Source: Paenibacillaceae bacterium
Lineage (GTDB): Bacteria; Bacillota; Bacilli; Paenibacillales; CANHGK01
NCBI GenBank assembly: GCA_947460235.1
Contig: CANHGK010000027.1
Location: forward strand, 1-32,196
Reading direction: 5' to 3'
Length of the DNA stretch: 32,196 bases
Made by a program: the position numbers and the translations under genes. Positions 17,709-32,196 of this stretch are shown one piece after another. The notes below the pieces were generated by a model. That model searched no databases, was not told the DNA's origin, and was given only the letters and a program-made list of their open reading frames with translations. Every line of letters starts with the position of its first letter. Positions within the stretch are counted from its first letter, which is position 1.

Positions 17709-17754
17709 AAAAATCGGTAAACCGTTCCTCATGGAAGGTTTACCGATCATTTTT
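17709..17754. terminator. Terminator of the kinase-alarmone synthetase-MprF-like operon
   Basis: ATCGGTAAACC (17713-17723) pairs with GGTTTACCGAT (17738-17748). There is an A-run on the left and T-run on the right, so it can act in both directions. It lies just beyond the operon's last stop at 17765. Apart from it, 17585-17708 holds only the upstream region of the GH13 lipoprotein gene. Confidence 0.85.
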
Positions 17755-17764
17755 CATACTACTC

Positions 17765-18907
17765 TCAAATTAATTCACAGGATGAAAGCAATACATTGAT
17801 CAATTCCAAATTCAACACAGCTGGAACGGATTGTTTGCCCATTTTCTTCATATTGCGAAGCAACTCCCAAACCCCCTTGGCAAATTGTTGCAGGGCGCCT
17901 TTCACTCTTCTGGCCTTAATCATCACCAACCATACTTGATATAGAGGGATTGATTTTTCGTAAGCAACATAACGTGTCTTCCATTCCGTTGGAGCAAATT
18001 TCTTTTTATAGTGATAAAGCGATTCAAAACAATAATCACTTTTTACATGCTTAAATACAAACTTCATAATTTTTTTCGTCAAATCTCCGTTGTCGTCGCA
18101 AATTCCTGCAAGCGGGACAACCCCAAGACTAAGAAGAGAGACGCCTTCATCTTTCATTTTCATCGCAGCAGTGATGATTGCATGTTCCATCACACCGGGC
18201 ACGGTTTCGCTTTTTTTGCGGCGCATCACATCTAAAAAATAACCACACCGATTCATGAATGGCGAAAACATCAACACCGCATGCACATTTCCAACCTCAT
18301 CAATTGAAACAAAATATCTTCTTTGCAAAGGAGTATCCAAATGTAAATCGCCAAGCGAAAATGTTAATTTCGCTTTTTTATCAGCAAACCATTCTGCGGA
18401 AACGTGATCGATCTTGTCCTCTAAATCATGGTCACGATGCTTACTTGGGTAATATTCAAAAACGGTTAGACCAGCCTTTTCTGACGCACGAATTTTGTTG
18501 CGAAGCTTCAACGTCGCTTTCCCGGTTAGTTCATAATTCCGCAAATCGATAATCGCTTCTTCTCCATATTTAAACATTAATAAACCCGCGTCAGTCATTG
18601 CCTGCGCGGCGTGTTCACTGGTAGAACTAAAACACATTTTCCAACGATTCATTTTGCAAAAACGCTGAAATTCCAGAAGCACACTACTCATTTGTTCTTG
18701 CGAACAAATGGGATCGCCAAGACTAAGTGCAACACGATCAATGACCACATAAGGTATTAGTCCTTGTCCATCTTTACTATAAAACATCAATTTTTCACCA
18801 GACAAAGCCAAATAACATAATGAATCATTCCCATAATGATGTACAAATTTCGCTGCCAAATCTTCATGCAAACCATGCGGAATCTCTTTTCGATTACGCG
18901 TTATCAC
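17765..18907 (-). CDS. DUF2156 / MprF C-terminal-type aminoacyl-lipid synthase domain protein
   Basis: The 380-residue soluble protein corresponds to the catalytic C-terminal half of MprF-type phosphatidylglycerol aminoacyltransferases (tandem GNAT fold). Motifs seen are LSLGDPICS (about 62-70), LRNKIRASEKAG, GYFLDVMRRK, GVMEHAIITAA, LSLGVVPLAG and LYHYKKKFAPTEWKTRYVAY. MprF moves an amino acid from its tRNA to phosphatidylglycerol, lowering surface charge and giving peptide resistance. No membrane flippase half is present, so any modified lipid would stay on the inner leaflet unless another protein flips it. The GTG start overlaps the alarmone synthetase stop (GTGA), so translation is coupled. 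The acceptor and amino acid cannot be told from sequence. Confidence 0.85.
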   Translation of the reverse strand: MITRNRKEIPHGLHEDLAAKFVHHYGNDSLCYLALSGEKLMFYSKDGQGLIPYVVIDRVALSLGDPICSQEQMSSVLLEFQRFCKMNRWKMCFSSTSEHAAQAMTDAGLLMFKYGEEAIIDLRNYELTGKATLKLRNKIRASEKAGLTVFEYYPSKHRDHDLEDKIDHVSAEWFADKKAKLTFSLGDLHLDTPLQRRYFVSIDEVGNVHAVLMFSPFMNRCGYFLDVMRRKKSETVPGVMEHAIITAAMKMKDEGVSLLSLGVVPLAGICDDNGDLTKKIMKFVFKHVKSDYCFESLYHYKKKFAPTEWKTRYVAYEKSIPLYQVWLVMIKARRVKGALQQFAKGVWELLRNMKKMGKQSVPAVLNLELINVLLSSCELI

Positions 18908-19554
18908 GTACGATCCACCTCGTCATTACGAATTTTATTGACTGCTTCATTTAATGAAAGCATGCGTTCATCCAAAATCGATGTAATCTCCGCCGCTTCT
19001 TTAAGTTGTTCTTTTATTTGAAGAGGTACATTTTCATTAAATTTATAGAAAATTTTATGTTCAAGGCTTGCCCAAAAATCCATCGCAATGGTACGGATCT
19101 GAATCTCAACTGGTACATGTTCAACCCGATTCGTCAAAAATACAGGGATCTCAATTAGCATATGCAAACTTCGATAGCCATTTGCTTTCGGATGATTTAC
19201 ATAATCTTTCACTTCAAGGACTGTCACATCATCTTGTGCCGCAAGCATTTGATAAATATTAAAAATATCCGTTGCAAATGAACAAATGACCCGTACGCCT
19301 GCAATATCACGAATGTGTTCATAAGCAGATTGGATGGTCACAGGAACGCCTTTTCGTTTCAATTTATCAAAAATGCTATCCGGGGATTTAATCCGCGACT
19401 TAATATGTTCAATTGGATTGCTGTCATGCATAAATTGAAACTCTTCGTTAATGATCGTTAACTTTGTTTCGACTTCTTTAAGCGCAAAACGATAGGATAG
19501 AAGAAATGCTGCCCAATCACGCATCCACTGCGCTTCAGATTCTGCCTCATACAT
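18904..19554 (-). CDS. Small alarmone synthetase ((p)ppGpp synthetase, RelA/SpoT domain)
   Basis: At about 216 residues it matches single-domain synthetases such as B. subtilis YjbM and YwaC and lacks the hydrolase and TGS domains of long Rel. Motifs are intact: HIKSRIKSPDSIFDKLKRKG, DIAGVRVICSF, VKDYVNHPKANGYRSLHM and VEIQIRTIAMDFWASLEH, including the Tyr that stacks on the guanine and the catalytic Asp and Glu. It should transfer pyrophosphate from ATP to GDP or GTP. The ATG at 19554 is preferred, with GAGGG 6 nt upstream; it overlaps the upstream kinase gene by 8 nt, and the ATG at 19560 is the alternative. It overlaps the downstream DUF2156 gene by 4 nt. Confidence 0.92.
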   Translation of the reverse strand: MYEAESEAQWMRDWAAFLLSYRFALKEVETKLTIINEEFQFMHDSNPIEHIKSRIKSPDSIFDKLKRKGVPVTIQSAYEHIRDIAGVRVICSFATDIFNIYQMLAAQDDVTVLEVKDYVNHPKANGYRSLHMLIEIPVFLTNRVEHVPVEIQIRTIAMDFWASLEHKIFYKFNENVPLQIKEQLKEAAEITSILDERMLSLNEAVNKIRNDEVDRT

Positions 19555-20200
19555 AAACATCCCTCGATCCCTTAAACAATTCACCCAAACTTAGAAAATC
19601 AAGCGCCTTTTCCACATTCTCTTCAATCGATTGTTTCGAATTGTCGAGATGGAGAATTGAACATTCCTGTTCATTCCAGTTGCATTTGAATTCTTGTAAT
19701 CCTTTAATCCGTTTGGAGAACTCATCCCAATTCGCTATTTTCCATGCATCCCGCGGATGATTACGTTGGATGATTCGCTGTTTTTGCAACTCCAAATCGG
19801 ACAGATAGACGTGAATCAACGACACGCTAACTTCTTCTAGCGTTTTACCTGCACGCGCAAGTTGACCAACGATCCAAGTCGGATCAAGCAATTCTTTGCC
19901 GAACGGACCGATCAACATAATATGTTTACCTAGTGCTAGATTTTCAACCGCCACATCCATGGTCGCCACATACTCCATATCGCGACAATGCTGCTGATAA
20001 AATGCAGAATCCCGATCATTAATATCTTGTCCATTCATTTGCAAAATTAGATCGCTATACCGACCTCCAACAGTATCTTTATCCAAAAAAACACAGTCAA
20101 ATTGCTTGACCATTTCCTTGGCAATGGTTGTCTTCCCTGTCCCGCCAGAACCGACAATAAAAATAATTTGCTGTCTTGATTGATGTAAAACTTCTTTCAT
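19547..20200 (-). CDS. P-loop kinase / AAA-family ATP-binding protein of unknown substrate
   Basis: The 217-residue protein starts with a Walker A loop (IIFIVGSGGTGKTTIAKEM, about 12-30), followed by FLDKDTVGGRYSD, a kinase-like second strand, an ML IGPFG segment near residue 95 and a C-terminal arginine-rich lid (QKQRIIQRNHPRDAWKIANW). This resembles the AAA_33 / small-molecule kinase group that also includes zeta-toxin-like and adenylylsulfate-kinase-like enzymes. The substrate is not recognisable. It is the first gene of a three-gene operon with overlapping frames, so its product may act on the same stress signal as the alarmone synthetase. A GGGG ribosome site lies 7 nt before the ATG. 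Confidence 0.8.
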   Translation of the reverse strand: MKEVLHQSRQQIIFIVGSGGTGKTTIAKEMVKQFDCVFLDKDTVGGRYSDLILQMNGQDINDRDSAFYQQHCRDMEYVATMDVAVENLALGKHIMLIGPFGKELLDPTWIVGQLARAGKTLEEVSVSLIHVYLSDLELQKQRIIQRNHPRDAWKIANWDEFSKRIKGLQEFKCNWNEQECSILHLDNSKQSIEENVEKALDFLSLGELFKGSRDVYV

Positions 20201-20375: not shown

Positions 20376-20522
20376 ATGTGTGATTTGGAAAGCGTAATTC
20401 ATGATATCTCTGAGTCTTTCCAAGCAGATAATTTTGACCACTTCCATGCGTTATGGGAGTTGAGGCCATACGGACAGCCGGGTCAAATGCCGATTGGCAA
20501 CTGTAGTTGCCTTATTGATTGA
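20376..20522 (+). CDS. Possible 48-residue small protein
   Basis: ATG at 20376 is preceded by AAAGGTGA with about 10 nt spacing. The product starts MCDLESVIHDISESF, contains an aromatic/acidic middle (DNFDHFHALWELRPYG) and ends in MPIGNCSCLID. A small hairpin TTGAGC-GTAAT-GCTCAA (20519-20535) followed by ATTTT overlaps the stop codon and could end the transcript. A dyad GGCAACT/AGTTGCC (20496-20511) lies inside the 3' end. I do not recognise the sequence. It may be a genuine small protein, a leader peptide or a gene fragment; the minus-strand frames over the same stretch look less protein-like. Confidence 0.3.
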   Translation: MCDLESVIHDISESFQADNFDHFHALWELRPYGQPGQMPIGNCSCLID

Positions 20523-20866
20523 GCGTAATGCTCAAATTTTATAAGTTGGTTACTTTACAACCAGTGCGAACAAAGCACACAACTTGTGAAACAGTCAATA
20601 AGAGTGCTAAAAGTGATTATTTGCTATATAGACTCTGATGCTACCGAGATATCTTGAATAGTTATAAGCTTTCTGCCCGTATGTCTATTGACATGCCCGT
20701 GGAATCATTCACATGACCGTTCCCTAGGAATCGTGTGCTTATTTCATATTGAAGATGACCTCATAACAAGTGTTGTGCGCGGCGATGCGCTAACCCTTGT
20801 TTTTTTGTTTTATAAATCGTTTCTTGGGATTTTTTACAAAATTTGACTTCGTCAGGAGAGTTGATC
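20523..20866 (+). other. Long leader/intergenic region before the polyamine operon
   Basis: The 344 bp hold no convincing ORF. The clear element is a hairpin with T-run at 20765-20806 (listed separately), about 60 bp before the start codon of the dehydrogenase gene. -35-like TTGACA occurs at 20688-20693 but has no good -10 at normal spacing, so I cannot place the promoter. Confidence 0.45.
20765..20806 (+). terminator. Terminator-like hairpin in the leader of the carboxynorspermidine operon
   Basis: AACAAG (20765-20770) pairs with CTTGTT (20796-20801), and an inner GCGC-GGCGAT-GCGC stem (20777-20790) strengthens it; a run of about eight T residues follows. No confident plus-strand gene ends just upstream, so it could be a transcription attenuator for the downstream operon or the end of an unrecognised small RNA. 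Confidence 0.5.
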
Positions 20867-22066
20867 ATGGGTAAAGCACTAATTATCGGTTGTGGCGCCG
20901 TGGCATCTGTTGCCATCCACAAATGCGTCCAAAACCATGAAGTATTTGAAGAAATTTGTATTGCAAGTCGCACGAAATCGAAATGCGATGAATTAAAAGC
21001 CAAATTGGATGGCGGTAAAACAATAATTACGACAGCTCAAATCGATGCAATGGACGTTCCTGCCTTGATCGCTTTGATTAACGAATATAAACCGGACATC
21101 GTTATGAACTTGGCATTGCCATATCAAGACTTGGCAATAATGGATGCATGTCTCGCGACAAAAACAAATTATATGGATACTGCCAACTATGAGCCAGAAG
21201 ATACGGCGAAGTTCGAGTATTCCTGGCAATGGGCATACAAAGAACGTTTCGAAGAAGCAGGCATCACTGCACTTCTCGGCAGCGGCTTTGATCCAGGTGT
21301 AACTGGCGTATTCTCCGCACACGCATTAAAGCACCATTTTGACGAAATTGAATACCTTGATATTCTTGACTGCAACGGCGGCGACCATGGCTATCCATTC
21401 GCAACGAACTTCAATCCAGAAATTAACATTCGTGAAGTTTCCGCAAACGGTCGTTATTTTGAGAATGGTCAATGGATTGAAACGAAACCGATGGAAATTA
21501 AACGCGGGTACAACTTCGAAGACGTTGGTCCGAAAGATATGTACTTGTTATATCATGAAGAACTTGAGTCCTTAGCGAAGAACATTCCTGGCATTAAACG
21601 CATTCGTTTCTTTATGACATTCGGTCAAAGCTATTTGATGCACTTGAAATGCCTTGAGAATGTCGGGATGACGTCGATCGAACCAATTGAATTCGAAGGC
21701 AAAAAAATCATTCCACTTCAATTCTTGAAAGCTGTTTTGCCGGACCCTGCATCTCTCGGACCGCGCACAAAAGGCAAAACGAACATCGGTTGTATTTTCC
21801 GCGGCAAAAAAGACGGCAAAGACAAAACGTATTACGTTTACAATATTTGTGACCACCAAGAGTGCTATCAAGAAGTCGGTTCGCAAGGCGTAGCCTATAC
21901 AACAGGCGTGCCTGCAATGATCGGTGCGATGATGCTGATGACTGGCGAGTGGGACAAAAAAGGCGTATACAATATTGAAGAGTTTAACCCTGACCCATAC
22001 ATGGATGCATTAAACAAATGGGGACTTCCTTGGAAGGAAAGCTTCTCACCGGAGCTTGTGGACTAA
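20867..22066 (+). CDS. Carboxynorspermidine/carboxyspermidine dehydrogenase (saccharopine dehydrogenase family)
   Basis: The 399-residue protein begins with a Rossmann motif (GKALIIGCGAVASVAIHKC) and has family landmarks MNLALPYQDLAIMDACL, YMDTANYE, GSGFDPGVTGVFSAH, DCNGGDHGYPF and a C-terminal GVPAMIGAMMLMTGEW. It makes a carboxylated triamine by NADPH-dependent condensation of aspartate semialdehyde with diaminopropane or putrescine. The next gene removes the carboxyl group, giving norspermidine or spermidine without S-adenosylmethionine decarboxylase. Which diamine is used cannot be read off. The ATG at 20867 is set by AGGAGA 7 nt upstream; an in-frame TTG at 20843 lacks a site. It is followed by nspC after 4 nt. 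Confidence 0.9.
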   Translation: MGKALIIGCGAVASVAIHKCVQNHEVFEEICIASRTKSKCDELKAKLDGGKTIITTAQIDAMDVPALIALINEYKPDIVMNLALPYQDLAIMDACLATKTNYMDTANYEPEDTAKFEYSWQWAYKERFEEAGITALLGSGFDPGVTGVFSAHALKHHFDEIEYLDILDCNGGDHGYPFATNFNPEINIREVSANGRYFENGQWIETKPMEIKRGYNFEDVGPKDMYLLYHEELESLAKNIPGIKRIRFFMTFGQSYLMHLKCLENVGMTSIEPIEFEGKKIIPLQFLKAVLPDPASLGPRTKGKTNIGCIFRGKKDGKDKTYYVYNICDHQECYQEVGSQGVAYTTGVPAMIGAMMLMTGEWDKKGVYNIEEFNPDPYMDALNKWGLPWKESFSPELVD

Positions 22067-22070
22067 CGAG

Positions 22071-23252
22071 ATGAAATTCGAACAACTCCCTACACCTTGT
22101 TATGTTGTCGACGAAGGTTTGGTCGAAAAAAACTTAAAAATCCTGAACGGCTTGATGAAGCGCACCGGATGCAAGATTGTGTTGGCCCAAAAAGCGTTCT
22201 CCATGTTTACGTTGTATCCGCTGATCGCTCAATATTTGGACGGCACGACGGCGAGCGGTTTATACGAAGCACGACTTGCACATGAAGAAATGAGTGGAAA
22301 AGAAAACCATGTATTTTCTCCTGCATATCGTGAAGACGAAATCGATGAAATCGTAAGCATGTGTGATCATATTATTTTCAACTCCTTCTCTCAATTAGAG
22401 AAGTACAAAAATAAAGTGCTCAGAGCCAGTAAGCATATTGGTTTGCGCATCAATCCTGAGTGTTCTACGCAAGAAGGTCATGCGATTTACGATCCTTGCG
22501 CACCAGGCTCACGTTTTGGTGTTACAATGGCGAATTTCCGTCCGGAATTAATGGATGGCGTGTCCGGGTTGCATTTCCACACACATTGCCAACAAAACTC
22601 AGATGCACTTGAAACCACTTTATATGCAGTCATTGAAAAATTCGGTCCATGGCTCTCGCAAATGGAATGGATTAACTTCGGCGGTGGTCACCACATTACA
22701 CGCGAAGATTATGACATTGCTCGCTTAGAGAAATGCATTAATTTGATGCAGGACAAATACGGTTTGCAAGTGTACTTGGAACCTGGAGAAGCTGTTGCAT
22801 TGAATGCTGGTTATCTTGTAACAAGCGTATTGGATACCGTTCAAAATGGCATCGATATTGCCATCCTTGATACATCCGCTACGTGCCATATGCCAGATGT
22901 TCTTGAAATGCCTTACCGACCACCATTATTCGGTTCCGGTGAAGTTGGAGAAAAGCCTTATTTATACCGTTTAGGCGGACAAACCTGCCTAGCTGGTGAT
23001 GTGATCGGCGATTACTCATTTGATCATCCACTGACATGTGGTGACCGTCTCGTATTCGGAGACATGGCCATCTATTCGATGGTCAAAAATACAACATTCA
23101 ACGGCATGGCACTCCCTGCAATTGCAATCAAAGAAAAAAACGGCGACTGCCGTGTTGTGCGTGAATTTGGTTACGAAGATTTCAAAATGCGTTTGGCACA
23201 TCAAACGATCCCTACTCAAAAACGCGTATTGGCCACATCAATTCAAAACTAA
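22071..23252 (+). CDS. nspC: Carboxynorspermidine decarboxylase (PLP-dependent, alanine-racemase fold)
   Basis: The 393-residue enzyme has the PLP lysine in VLAQKAFSMF (Lys41), the HFHTHCQQ segment, a phosphate-binding glycine loop INFGGGHHIT, EPGEAV, DTSATCHMPDVLEMPYRP and the active-site cysteine motif QTCLAGDVIGDYSF, all typical of NspC. It decarboxylates carboxynorspermidine and/or carboxyspermidine made by the dehydrogenase encoded just upstream. The ATG at 22071 begins 4 nt after the preceding stop; only a distant GGAG (22051-22054) and CGAG are available, so translation is probably coupled. A frame extension to 22056 exists but the family begins near KFEQLPTPCYV. Confidence 0.93.
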   Translation: MKFEQLPTPCYVVDEGLVEKNLKILNGLMKRTGCKIVLAQKAFSMFTLYPLIAQYLDGTTASGLYEARLAHEEMSGKENHVFSPAYREDEIDEIVSMCDHIIFNSFSQLEKYKNKVLRASKHIGLRINPECSTQEGHAIYDPCAPGSRFGVTMANFRPELMDGVSGLHFHTHCQQNSDALETTLYAVIEKFGPWLSQMEWINFGGGHHITREDYDIARLEKCINLMQDKYGLQVYLEPGEAVALNAGYLVTSVLDTVQNGIDIAILDTSATCHMPDVLEMPYRPPLFGSGEVGEKPYLYRLGGQTCLAGDVIGDYSFDHPLTCGDRLVFGDMAIYSMVKNTTFNGMALPAIAIKEKNGDCRVVREFGYEDFKMRLAHQTIPTQKRVLATSIQN

Positions 23253-28019: not shown

Positions 28020-31000
28020 TTATTTCACTGCTTTCACCAATTTCTCGTGATCATCCGCTTGTCGGACGAACTGATGATCTTGCGATGCCTCTTCAATCTC
28101 TGCATATGCCCAATTCGATTTTGGCACATCCGTCCAAGTTTGCTTCGTCACATTCGTAATGGGTCCTCGTTGAAATAATCGGTTCAAAATTACAACGGTT
28201 TGTGCGCGGTTCAAAAACTTCGACGTAAATACATGCGGTGTTCCGGCCATTTTTTGACCACTAAGATATTTATTCAATTCGTTCAGATGGTAATTGTTCT
28301 TGATTTGCTTTTTCAATACCGTAAGCACGTTATGAATGATTTCTTTCATTTGCTTATTCGTGATGAATTTATTCGGTCCAAATTTTCCTTTTTTGTAATG
28401 GGTCATAAAGCCATATTTCGTGACGGATTCAATCGCAACTTTCACGAGTTGATCATGCCCAAGATCCCTATACTTTTCAGTTGGTTTTGACTGATTGATC
28501 GGATAACCGGATTGTTTGACCCATCGCGATAACAACACCGCCAGTTCTGCACGGGTAATCCATTTGTTCGGTTTGAATTTCGCACCCGGATATCCAGAAA
28601 TGTATTTCGTGTGTTTTTCAACCTTGGTTTCCGTGGGCATTGGAACCTTAATCGGAACGCTTACTGAATCCAATTCTAAATCATAATTCACGATCGTTTG
28701 ACCCACATGAATGATACCGTCTTTGATGTAACTATCTTCGCCAGGTAACTGCGCTACATTTCGCTTTTCATTACGAGAGTCGTAAGTAATGTACCCATCC
28801 TTTTCAGCGGTGATGTAATAATCGGCATCTGGGAATACCATCCAAGCATATTCACCATGAACATCGGTGAATTGTGGCATTTTGTTATCATTCGGTTTGA
28901 AGCCAGCTAAGATCGGAAGGATTACTGGTGACCCACCGGTACGACCATGTGTGCGATTCGTTTCTGTGTCCGCAAACCATAATTTCATGTGTACTCCCGA
29001 AATTACTTTTCCTGTCGCTGCATCTTTTACAATCCCGTATGGGTCAATTAACGTCGTGCTAAATGCGATTTCGCCTTCCTGACCGACCGTCAATTTTACC
29101 TTTGTACCCGCTAACTCTTCACCTGTAGAGGCAACAACGGTTAATAACACTTCATACGTCTTTCCTTTTTCGACACCCGTAACTCGGTATGAACCATCGG
29201 GATTAACCTCAACATTCGCTGAACTTCCATCGGAATTTACTAGACTAGCACTTAATTTCGGCGCTTCGTCGGTATGGCTATACTGATTCATTTTTACGGT
29301 TTCACCGCTCGTTGAATCTACAAAGAGCAATTGTCCACCAATTGTGTTTTCGGATAGGAAAGACTTCCCTTGTTCGCCGACATCGCCAGCTTGCGCATTT
29401 TGTTCAAAAGATAGCTTTATCTCTTTTCCGTTCATTTTTTTGGAGAATTCAATGACTGGATGGTATTCGTAATTACCTTTTGGAACAGTAATGGTGTAGT
29501 AACCATCCGAACTCGTGTAACGAACCGCTTCAAAATCAATCGTACCATCGTGATTGAAATCTTCGCTAATTGTTACTTTAGCACCTTCAACAAGCTGACC
29601 ATTTTCTGCATCACGTACATATCCTTCGATTGCTGCAGGTAAGAGCAGAATACTGACGTTGTCCTCTACGATGTTGTCCTTCGTAGAGATCGTTGCTTTT
29701 GCGACGATCTGTTCTGGTTCTAATGCTTCGATGACTGGCGAAGTCAATAGTGCACTTGCCACACCTTGCTCGTCCGTTGTTACATCATTCGTCGAAAGTG
29801 TTCCTTGTCCTACGGTAAAGTGAATTGTCACGCCAGCGAGTGGTTTTCCTTTCGGATCAACTGCATACGCCGACAACATGGACTGCGATTTCCCATCCGC
29901 AAACATTTCTTTCGGACTTGCTGACAATGTTAATTTGTAATCGACCTTCGTCTCAATTGAGAGTTTCAGCTGATCCGTAATGACTTGTTTCCAGGTTGGT
30001 TCCGTTGCTGAGACTCGAACGGTGTATGTGCCATCTGCCAAATCATTGGCAGGCTTAATGGACCATTGACCACTTAACGTAGATGTTTTTTGACTTGAAA
30101 CAATTGATTCAGAAGCATTTATGACTTCCACGATAATTGGTACAAAATCTTGTAAATTCGTCGTACCGTACAATTGAGGTCGGGGGTCAGATTTCAATGC
30201 ACTGACTTCCTCCGCAATCTTCAATTCCGCTTTTGATGTGTTGATCGTAAGTTGAATCGGTACCGCGCTGCCTTTTTTACCATTCAAGTCGATCACATAT
30301 GCATTCACAACATATGAACCGTCAGCAAGCGGCGTCGTTATGGTAACTTCCCATTTTCCATTTGCGACTGTGGTAGCATATTTTGCTCCATTTACCTCAA
30401 TGGTCATCGCACTTCCATTCGATGCATCGGTAAATCCATTAATATTAGGCGTTGGATCGTTCGTCAAAATGGTTGGTGCATTATAAATCGCAATCGATGG
30501 AAGTTTCACATCTACACTCAGCAATTGTGTCGCAATTGCTTGATTTCCCGAACTGTCCGTGATCGATGCATATACTGTATACGTGCCATTCGGTAATGAA
30601 TCTGTGACTTTGATACTCCAGTTGCCACCTGCAACCGTTGCTTCATAGGACTTCCCATCAACTTTCACCGAAACGATACTTCCATTCGGTGCATCAGTCG
30701 TTCCTGTCAGAATCGGTTTGTCCGTCGTAACACGATTTAAAACCATCGAATCGATCGTCAATCGATATGCCGTCGCATCCATTTGAATTGATTGTTGATC
30801 GGTTGATTCTAAACCTTGTGTATTCGATACTTTGGCAGTTGCAATATAATCGCCATCTGCAATGCCCGATAACACGTTCCAACTCCATTTTCCATTTGAC
30901 ACACTTGCCGAACCCGTTTGTCCAGCTACCGTAATACTTACTAGGGTACCATTCGGTGCATTCGTTGTTCCTGAAATGGTAGGCGTTATGTTGTTGGTAA

Positions 31001-32196
31001 CAACCTGCTCACCGCCAGAAATTGCAATTTCATACGCCGGAAACGACACTACGATTGGTGCTTGGACCAACGTCCAGTTTGCATAAACCGTTGTCGCTTG
31101 TGTGATCTGAACAGTACCAAAATCAAAAGGAAGTGTTCCATTTTGATCTTTGTACCACCCTTTGAAGGTGTATCCTGATTTTGATGGATCTAAAGGTTTT
31201 GAAGCTTTCTTTTTGAAAGCAATCGACTGACTCGTAACTGCGCTTCCACCGCCATTATTAAAATCCACAAGGTAATTTGACAAAGCGATCGTAACACTTA
31301 TCACACCTAAGCCGGAATCAAGTCCGCCTTGATCCGTTACCTTAAATGTAAATTGATCTGATCCCTCTGAACCGGCGTTTGGTGTGTATGTGTAAGCGCC
31401 AGTTGACGCATCTGTGATCGTAACGTTCCCCTTGCTACCTTGCGTCACAATGGCGTACGTCACCGTTTGTTGTTCGATGTCTTGTCCAGATAATGTACCC
31501 GAAGTGACCGTTTCATCGCTGACATTCAACGATCCATTGTTGGCAATTGGAGCTTCATTCACATCTGTAACTGTAATCATGAACTGCTTCTCGTAGTTGT
31601 TTGATCCATCGTTCACATTCACACGGATGCTGTAACTAGATTTCGTTTCATAATCAAAACTCGTAGCGGTTTGTAGCGTCGTTCCGCTGATCGTGAAACT
31701 CGCGTTATCCGTGTCGCCAGTTCCACTAACAAATGTGTACGTGTAGGTGTTGCCTGAATCCACGTCCGTGTTGCTAAATGTTCCGACCGATGTGATGCTT
31801 AGTGAATTTTCGGAAACACTCGAATTGCTTAATGAAAGATTCGTTGGCGCTTCATTAACGTCAGTCACCGTGATTGTGATCTGCTTCTCGTAATCATTCG
31901 ATCCGTCGTTCACATTCACGCGAATGCTGTAACTCGGTTTCGTTTCGTAATCAAAACTTGCCGACGTCACTAACGAAGTCCCACTTATCGTGAAACTCGC
32001 GTTATCCGTGTCGCCAGTTCCACTCACAAATGTGTACGTGTAGGTGTTGCCTGAATCTACGTCCGAATTGCTAAGTGTTCCGATCGATGTGATGCTTGGT
32101 GAATTTTCAGAAACATTCGAATTGCTTAATGAAAGATTCGTTGGCGCTTCGTTGACGTCAAGCACAGTGATCGTGAACTGCTTTTCGTAATCATTC
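28020..32196 (-). CDS. Very large SLH-anchored adhesin-like protein, 5' end outside window
   Basis: The frame is open through the right edge; 1391 C-terminal residues are seen. From the N-terminal side (numbered from 32165): two near-identical 99-residue cadherin-like repeats (2-199), a third related/VCBS-type domain (200-297), a Listeria-Bacteroides (Flg_new/InlB B-repeat type) domain (298-365, GYTFKGWYKD...TTVYANW), four bacterial Ig-like domains (about 395-740, PxISGTT...GxW...LxDGxY), an invasin-type Big_1 domain (745-843), two carboxypeptidase-regulatory-like folds (846-905 with a DFNHDGTIDFE calcium-like loop, 1044-1130) and degenerate SLH segments to the end (about 1187-1381, FKPNKWITRAE, FGPNKFITNKQ, TWTDVPKSNWAYAEIEEAS). 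It is a rod-like surface protein held by the SLH region; the binding target is unknown. Confidence 0.92.
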   Translation of the reverse strand, partial: NDYEKQFTITVLDVNEAPTNLSLSNSNVSENSPSITSIGTLSNSDVDSGNTYTYTFVSGTGDTDNASFTISGTSLVTSASFDYETKPSYSIRVNVNDGSNDYEKQITITVTDVNEAPTNLSLSNSSVSENSLSITSVGTFSNTDVDSGNTYTYTFVSGTGDTDNASFTISGTTLQTATSFDYETKSSYSIRVNVNDGSNNYEKQFMITVTDVNEAPIANNGSLNVSDETVTSGTLSGQDIEQQTVTYAIVTQGSKGNVTITDASTGAYTYTPNAGSEGSDQFTFKVTDQGGLDSGLGVISVTIALSNYLVDFNNGGGSAVTSQSIAFKKKASKPLDPSKSGYTFKGWYKDQNGTLPFDFGTVQITQATTVYANWTLVQAPIVVSFPAYEIAISGGEQVVTNNITPTISGTTNAPNGTLVSITVAGQTGSASVSNGKWSWNVLSGIADGDYIATAKVSNTQGLESTDQQSIQMDATAYRLTIDSMVLNRVTTDKPILTGTTDAPNGSIVSVKVDGKSYEATVAGGNWSIKVTDSLPNGTYTVYASITDSSGNQAIATQLLSVDVKLPSIAIYNAPTILTNDPTPNINGFTDASNGSAMTIEVNGAKYATTVANGKWEVTITTPLADGSYVVNAYVIDLNGKKGSAVPIQLTINTSKAELKIAEEVSALKSDPRPQLYGTTNLQDFVPIIVEVINASESIVSSQKTSTLSGQWSIKPANDLADGTYTVRVSATEPTWKQVITDQLKLSIETKVDYKLTLSASPKEMFADGKSQSMLSAYAVDPKGKPLAGVTIHFTVGQGTLSTNDVTTDEQGVASALLTSPVIEALEPEQIVAKATISTKDNIVEDNVSILLLPAAIEGYVRDAENGQLVEGAKVTISEDFNHDGTIDFEAVRYTSSDGYYTITVPKGNYEYHPVIEFSKKMNGKEIKLSFEQNAQAGDVGEQGKSFLSENTIGGQLLFVDSTSGETVKMNQYSHTDEAPKLSASLVNSDGSSANVEVNPDGSYRVTGVEKGKTYEVLLTVVASTGEELAGTKVKLTVGQEGEIAFSTTLIDPYGIVKDAATGKVISGVHMKLWFADTETNRTHGRTGGSPVILPILAGFKPNDNKMPQFTDVHGEYAWMVFPDADYYITAEKDGYITYDSRNEKRNVAQLPGEDSYIKDGIIHVGQTIVNYDLELDSVSVPIKVPMPTETKVEKHTKYISGYPGAKFKPNKWITRAELAVLLSRWVKQSGYPINQSKPTEKYRDLGHDQLVKVAIESVTKYGFMTHYKKGKFGPNKFITNKQMKEIIHNVLTVLKKQIKNNYHLNELNKYLSGQKMAGTPHVFTSKFLNRAQTVVILNRLFQRGPITNVTKQTWTDVPKSNWAYAEIEEASQDHQFVRQADDHEKLVKAVK
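31569..32162 (-). repeat. Tandem 297-bp cadherin-like repeats
   Basis: Two complete copies (32162-31866 and 31865-31569) encode 99 residues each with 14 differences by eye (86% identity). The 11 codons at 32163-32195 match the end of another copy, so the array continues outside the window. Confidence 0.9.

Follow-up and report, generated by a model that had tools for sequence, protein, structure and literature searches.

Does a small alarmone synthetase (SAS) set between a P-loop kinase and a soluble relative of the MprF lipid synthase represent an undescribed bacterial system, or a familiar stress enzyme in unusual company? The question is raised by a three-gene unit on the minus strand of a 32,196-nucleotide stretch of DNA from a Paenibacillaceae bacterium (hereafter, the window), which lies on contig 27 of a 2.72-Mb genome that is 99.2% complete and whose order includes Paenibacillus and Saccharibacillus-type genomes. 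A sequence-only reading of this unit had singled it out as a candidate undescribed system, which might couple alarmone production to membrane charge or act as a toxin–antitoxin or defence module. Our analysis makes it somewhat probable that the unit is a lineage-specific operon that is built around an ordinary chromosomal RelP/SasA and also expresses a peripheral aminoacyl-lipid synthase along with a small-molecule kinase. What we describe is one lineage's unusual arrangement of genes, not a proven new system.

All three reading frames of the unit are intact and none is interrupted. The kinase and SAS genes overlap by 8 bp if the SAS starts at the ATG at 19554, or by 14 bp if it starts at the one at 19560, and AAGGGA/GAGGG Shine–Dalgarno sequences stand upstream of these ATGs; the stop of the SAS in turn overlaps the start of the synthase by 4 bp (GTGA, 18904–18907), with a Shine–Dalgarno GAGGTGG located 7 nt upstream of the synthase GTG. 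The terminator that follows the third gene is absent from the list of a simple scan and is supported by its folding energy relative to shuffled sequences, none of which was equally stable. The overlapping arrangement, the gene identities (profile matches to AAA_33, PF04607, and PF09924, all well above chance level) and the common terminator announced by the sequence-only reading are thus all borne out. Since a search for promoters of the unit returned none above chance, and no SigM- or SigW-like site was seen for it either, it is from the overlaps of the genes that we infer a single transcript.

Table 1. Coordinates and main properties of the three-gene unit and of neighbouring features in the window.
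Feature	Position	Strand	Remarks
Three-gene unit	17765..20200	-	
P-loop kinase gene, first of the unit	19547..20200	-	ATG start, 217 aa; AAA_33 / gluconokinase–APS kinase–NMP kinase superfamily
RelP/SasA (YwaC)-type SAS gene	18904..19560	-	Start ATG 19560 or ATG 19554; ORF open to GTG 19584
PF09924 (MprF synthase-domain) gene	17765..18907	-	GTG start, 380 aa
Intrinsic terminator, 3' of the third gene	17712..17748	-	Stem-loop then U-tract; -22.1 kcal/mol, z -5.3
RF02440 (SpF59 sRNA / ldcC RNA)	20435..20493	+	Strong Rfam match, 70.5 bits
Saccharopine-dehydrogenase-like (carboxynorspermidine synthase type) and decarboxylase genes	20843..23252		Divergent from the unit
Large surface protein	28020..32165	-	Cadherin-like, Big-type, and SLH domains

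Besides a large surface protein, the surroundings of the unit comprise an RF02440 element, lying between the trio and the divergent saccharopine-dehydrogenase-like and decarboxylase genes. This element is present in 31 of 399 genomes of the class, and a saccharopine-dehydrogenase-like gene is found within about 400 bp downstream of it in 19 of the 20 loci fetched (L166–L185), that of the window included, the remaining locus having a gene resembling an Orn/Lys/Arg decarboxylase in this position. Because the same enzyme gene recurs just downstream in 19 of these 20 loci, we suggest that RF02440 is a cis-regulatory leader of polyamine genes, perhaps a polyamine riboswitch, and not a free sRNA.

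The central gene of the unit encodes a protein whose domain content, according to a profile search, is PF04607 alone (4e-35). Its best solved relative is Bacillus subtilis YwaC (6fgk; 7.8e-74, 251 bits), against 194 bits for the Staphylococcus aureus RelP entries 6ewz/6fgj and 156 bits for YjbM/RelQ. In alignment with the solved YwaC, RelP, and YjbM, the RDIAG motif, the tyrosine of the G-loop (NHPKANGYRSLH) and the EIQIRT motif are intact, as previously read from the sequence. Three RSH proteins are encoded in the genome: contig 12 carries a long Rel and contig 16 a RelQ-like protein, and the third is the window SAS, which is 41% identical to this RelQ-like protein and 61–65% identical to its nearest relatives in the order. 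Given that YwaC is its best match, that these nearest relatives belong to the order and that the long Rel and the RelQ-like protein lie elsewhere, the SAS is, as judged from these matches, the only RelP/SasA (YwaC) type of the genome and native to the order; it is predicted to synthesise (p)ppGpp. A proline in the G-loop has been described as RelP-specific at that position (PMC5794853); the window SAS carries it, but we dropped it as a marker because it also occurs in the RelQ-like synthetase of this genome (NSPKESGY; L109, 4138–4992, plus strand) and is hence non-discriminating here.

The third protein matches PF09924 over the full-length domain (8.7e-62) and can be aligned over this whole domain with the LysPG synthase 4v36 (1.9e-33) and the AlaPG synthase 4v34, all the main conserved blocks being present. 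No transmembrane (TM) helix was seen in it, and its tail consists of a basic amphipathic C-terminal helix followed by a short hydrophobic end. The absence of a flippase, another element of the earlier interpretation, is confirmed at a larger scale, as PF03706 has no match in this protein or anywhere in the 99.2% complete genome, in which neither a second PF09924 protein nor the PF16995 TM domain was detected. Lipid export is therefore unsupported, and on its domain content we class the protein as a synthase-domain protein, not as an MprF, for which we infer peripheral membrane binding and aminoacyl-lipid synthesis. With regard to this activity, it has been reported in S. aureus that the hydrophilic domain of MprF gave no Lys-PG in Escherichia coli unless at least six TM segments accompanied it, and that, when MprF is deprived of its N-terminal part, most Lys-PG remains in the inner leaflet (PMC2774229). 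On the basis of this TM requirement, the TM-less synthase of the window might be inactive on phosphatidylglycerol or use another acceptor, and our prediction is one of inner-leaflet aminoacylation at most, or of the modification of such another acceptor.

In a tree of the synthase domain, the window protein groups with members from other classes of the phylum (34–37% identity, support 100/99), apart from the MprF of Bacilli, on a long branch that makes its origin and exact position uncertain. A synthase of this type, as seen in other classes of the phylum, was probably added in the host lineage. Its nearest relatives are frames of about 570–580 aa from other classes, with a short TM part; a fusion of these relatives to a SAS was ruled out, as it is a hydrophobic TM domain that accounts for their additional length. 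An N-terminal TM helix is also present in the standalone synthase relatives of four other genomes (L010, L071, L073, and L074), the first of which lies directly downstream of a membrane protein resembling, by eye, a separate flippase half. A relative without TM helix was nevertheless identified in another class (G1088 contig 64, 9260–10334; L163/L165), with 49% identity over residues 18–269, so the TM-less form also exists outside the host genome. The reading frame of this relative is disrupted from about residue 269 onwards; its neighbours, as named by eye, are flavoprotein, CoA-transferase-like, and Old-Yellow-Enzyme-type genes, with no SAS among them. Finally, a search of GTDB r220 contigs with peptide patterns returned no near relatives of the window synthase.

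The kinase matches AAA_33 (7e-9), as do all 30 of its aligned relatives, in which the invariant motifs particular to this family are kept. Its AlphaFold2 model (pLDDT 88) has its best fold match in 2rhm (Z 17.3), a putative kinase that is itself uncharacterised and behind which many small-molecule kinases score nearly equal, such that the fold search allows no substrate to be named. Homologues were found in about two thirds of the sampled genomes of the order (199/298), including Paenibacillus turpanensis and Saccharibacillus alkalitolerans, as well as in halophilic Bacillaceae and Paraburkholderia, their neighbours being unrelated. In three Paenibacillus genomes (L144, L145, and L147), a homologue directly abuts a protein of about 1,110–1,130 aa that begins with a SWIM-like zinc finger; this pair recurs and is unrelated to the trio of the window.

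If the trio were a conserved system, its genes would be expected to recur together. The kinase, the SAS, and the synthase were searched in the order, the class, the phylum, and two further classes, and all three were compared by tblastn with every fetched locus, that is, about 50 kinase, 29 RelP, and 50 synthase loci (about 130 in total, approximate counts since some loci repeat one genome). These tests of linkage cover the order level and beyond, the sample being without same-family genomes, and within this scope no two of the three genes were linked in any of the relatives' loci, only those of the host genome having more than one; a by-eye comparison of coordinates agrees with tblastn that the trio is unlinked elsewhere. 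The kinase and RelP genes do lie some 34–56 kb apart, by eye, in numerous members of a single genus (g16), a distance on which we rejected the idea of an operon and a proximity that probably reflects shared ancestry. The search for conservation suggested by the sequence-only reading therefore returned, at the level of the order and beyond, the trio in the host genome only, which is the outcome that this reading had itself named as refuting, and the proposal of an undescribed conserved system is left unsupported, with no second example of even one pair.

How, then, could these three genes have come to share a unit? Two rivals to our preferred reading are live, neutral assembly and a dedicated coupling module, the toxin–antitoxin reading being unlikely. 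Under neutral assembly, unrelated genes would simply have come to lie tightly together on a single transcript, the genome being small, with overlaps that reflect compactness and not a functional relation. The modest size of the genome (2.72 Mb), the unrelated neighbourhoods in which the relatives of each gene are found and the apparent derivation of the synthase from outside the Bacilli group all point in this direction; however, two successive overlaps, good ribosome-binding sites, and intact frames suggest that the arrangement is tolerated or selected, and we regard a purely neutral origin as rather unlikely. The same tight overlaps, suggestive of translational coupling, and the integrity of all three proteins speak instead for a module in which the making of alarmone and that of aminoacyl-lipid would be functionally linked: both might respond to cationic peptides, for instance, or charged tRNA might become available to the lipid synthase when translation slows, and the kinase would serve as sensor or regulator. 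In other Firmicutes, RelP and MprF do act in envelope stress or in the tolerance of cationic peptides (PMC6853874, PMC7533549, PMC2774229), yet the lack of linkage among the relatives' loci and the flippase-less genome count against such a module, and no paper was found in which an MprF operon is connected with a small alarmone synthetase, so that we consider it unlikely. As for the coupling to membrane charge put forward from the sequence alone, it can still be entertained, but it is weakened by the absence of PF03706 from the genome and of a TM segment from the synthase.

Could the SAS be a toxic effector that the kinase or the PF09924 protein keeps in check, within a toxin–antitoxin or anti-phage module? 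The overlap of the genes would be in line with this, as would a match of the SAS domain to the PADLOC candidate model PDC-S33 (2.5e-22) and a weak match of the kinase P-loop to the Zeta_toxin model, below the cut-off. In this regard, over-expression of YwaC halts growth and lowers GTP (PMC3426417), an observation that fits a toxic effector but which also means that toxicity of the SAS on over-expression alone would not make a toxin–antitoxin pair. The antitoxins described for toxSAS are pZFD, Tis1-like, PanA-type, or SAH proteins (PMC11782079); none of these adjoins the window SAS, both neighbours being enzymes of other families, and the kinase homologues occur alone or in unrelated contexts. 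The SAS itself falls outside the toxSAS subfamilies, with YjbM/YwaC as its nearest families and YwaC far closer than the defence model, and the genome has no other RelP, while PADLOC gave a shared-domain match for it only and nothing strong for its neighbours. A viral origin was likewise rejected, since no relative of the SAS was found in viral contigs and the kinase has two weak phage matches only. On this basis, a toxin–antitoxin or defensive function, as raised in the sequence-only reading, finds no support and appears very improbable.

We therefore return to the reading of a lineage-specific operon around an ordinary RelP, and propose how it might operate. In B. subtilis, sasA/ywaC is SigM-dependent and responsive to bacitracin, that is, induced by envelope stress (PMC6853874), and the RelP of S. 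aureus is induced by envelope stress within the VraRS regulon (PMC7533549). As for RelP in these other Firmicutes, the three genes of the window would be made together on induction, most likely by cell-envelope stress. RelP would then convert ATP and GDP or GTP into (p)ppGpp, so that growth slows and GTP falls, while the soluble PF09924 protein would bind the inner face of the membrane through its basic C-terminal helix, at about residues 333–380, and use aminoacyl-tRNA to charge phosphatidylglycerol, or an acceptor similar to it, with an amino acid, the product not being flipped; the kinase, for its part, would phosphorylate a small molecule. The three proteins would probably act in parallel and not as a dedicated complex. 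A more speculative extension, which we find doubtful and quite unlikely, is that the alarmone and the flippase-free synthase serve one envelope-stress operon in which charged tRNA is directed to inner-leaflet lipid as translation slows, the kinase making or removing a signal or a substrate. Such direct coupling of alarmone and aminoacyl-lipid synthesis is not described in the papers found, and, if true, would link the stringent response to the aminoacylation of membrane lipids. Independently of this idea, the locus provides a TM-less member of the MprF-synthase family with which one could ask whether cells need TM segments to make aminoacyl-PG, a requirement reported for the MprF of S. aureus (PMC2774229).

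Compared with known systems, the unit resembles toxSAS systems in that a SAS domain lies within an overlapping gene set, but differs from them by its RelP-type SAS, with no known antitoxin fold adjoining and no viral relative found. With MprF and LysPG synthases, the window shares a full-length synthase domain and its conserved blocks, but neither the flippase domain, lacking in the whole genome, nor a TM helix, its synthase being most similar to the short-TM proteins of about 570 aa from other classes and to the TM-less G1088 protein. Like RelP/SasA/YwaC (SAS2) enzymes, the window SAS has a single PF04607 domain with intact ATP- and GTP-site motifs and exists in one copy beside a long Rel and a RelQ-like protein; unlike them, it is flanked by a kinase gene on one side and a PF09924 gene on the other, and neither neighbour is found at any of the 29 RelP loci of its relatives. 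The kinase, finally, has the P-loop, the fold, and the size of the small AAA_33 / gluconokinase-like kinases, but belongs to a family marked by invariant motifs of its own.
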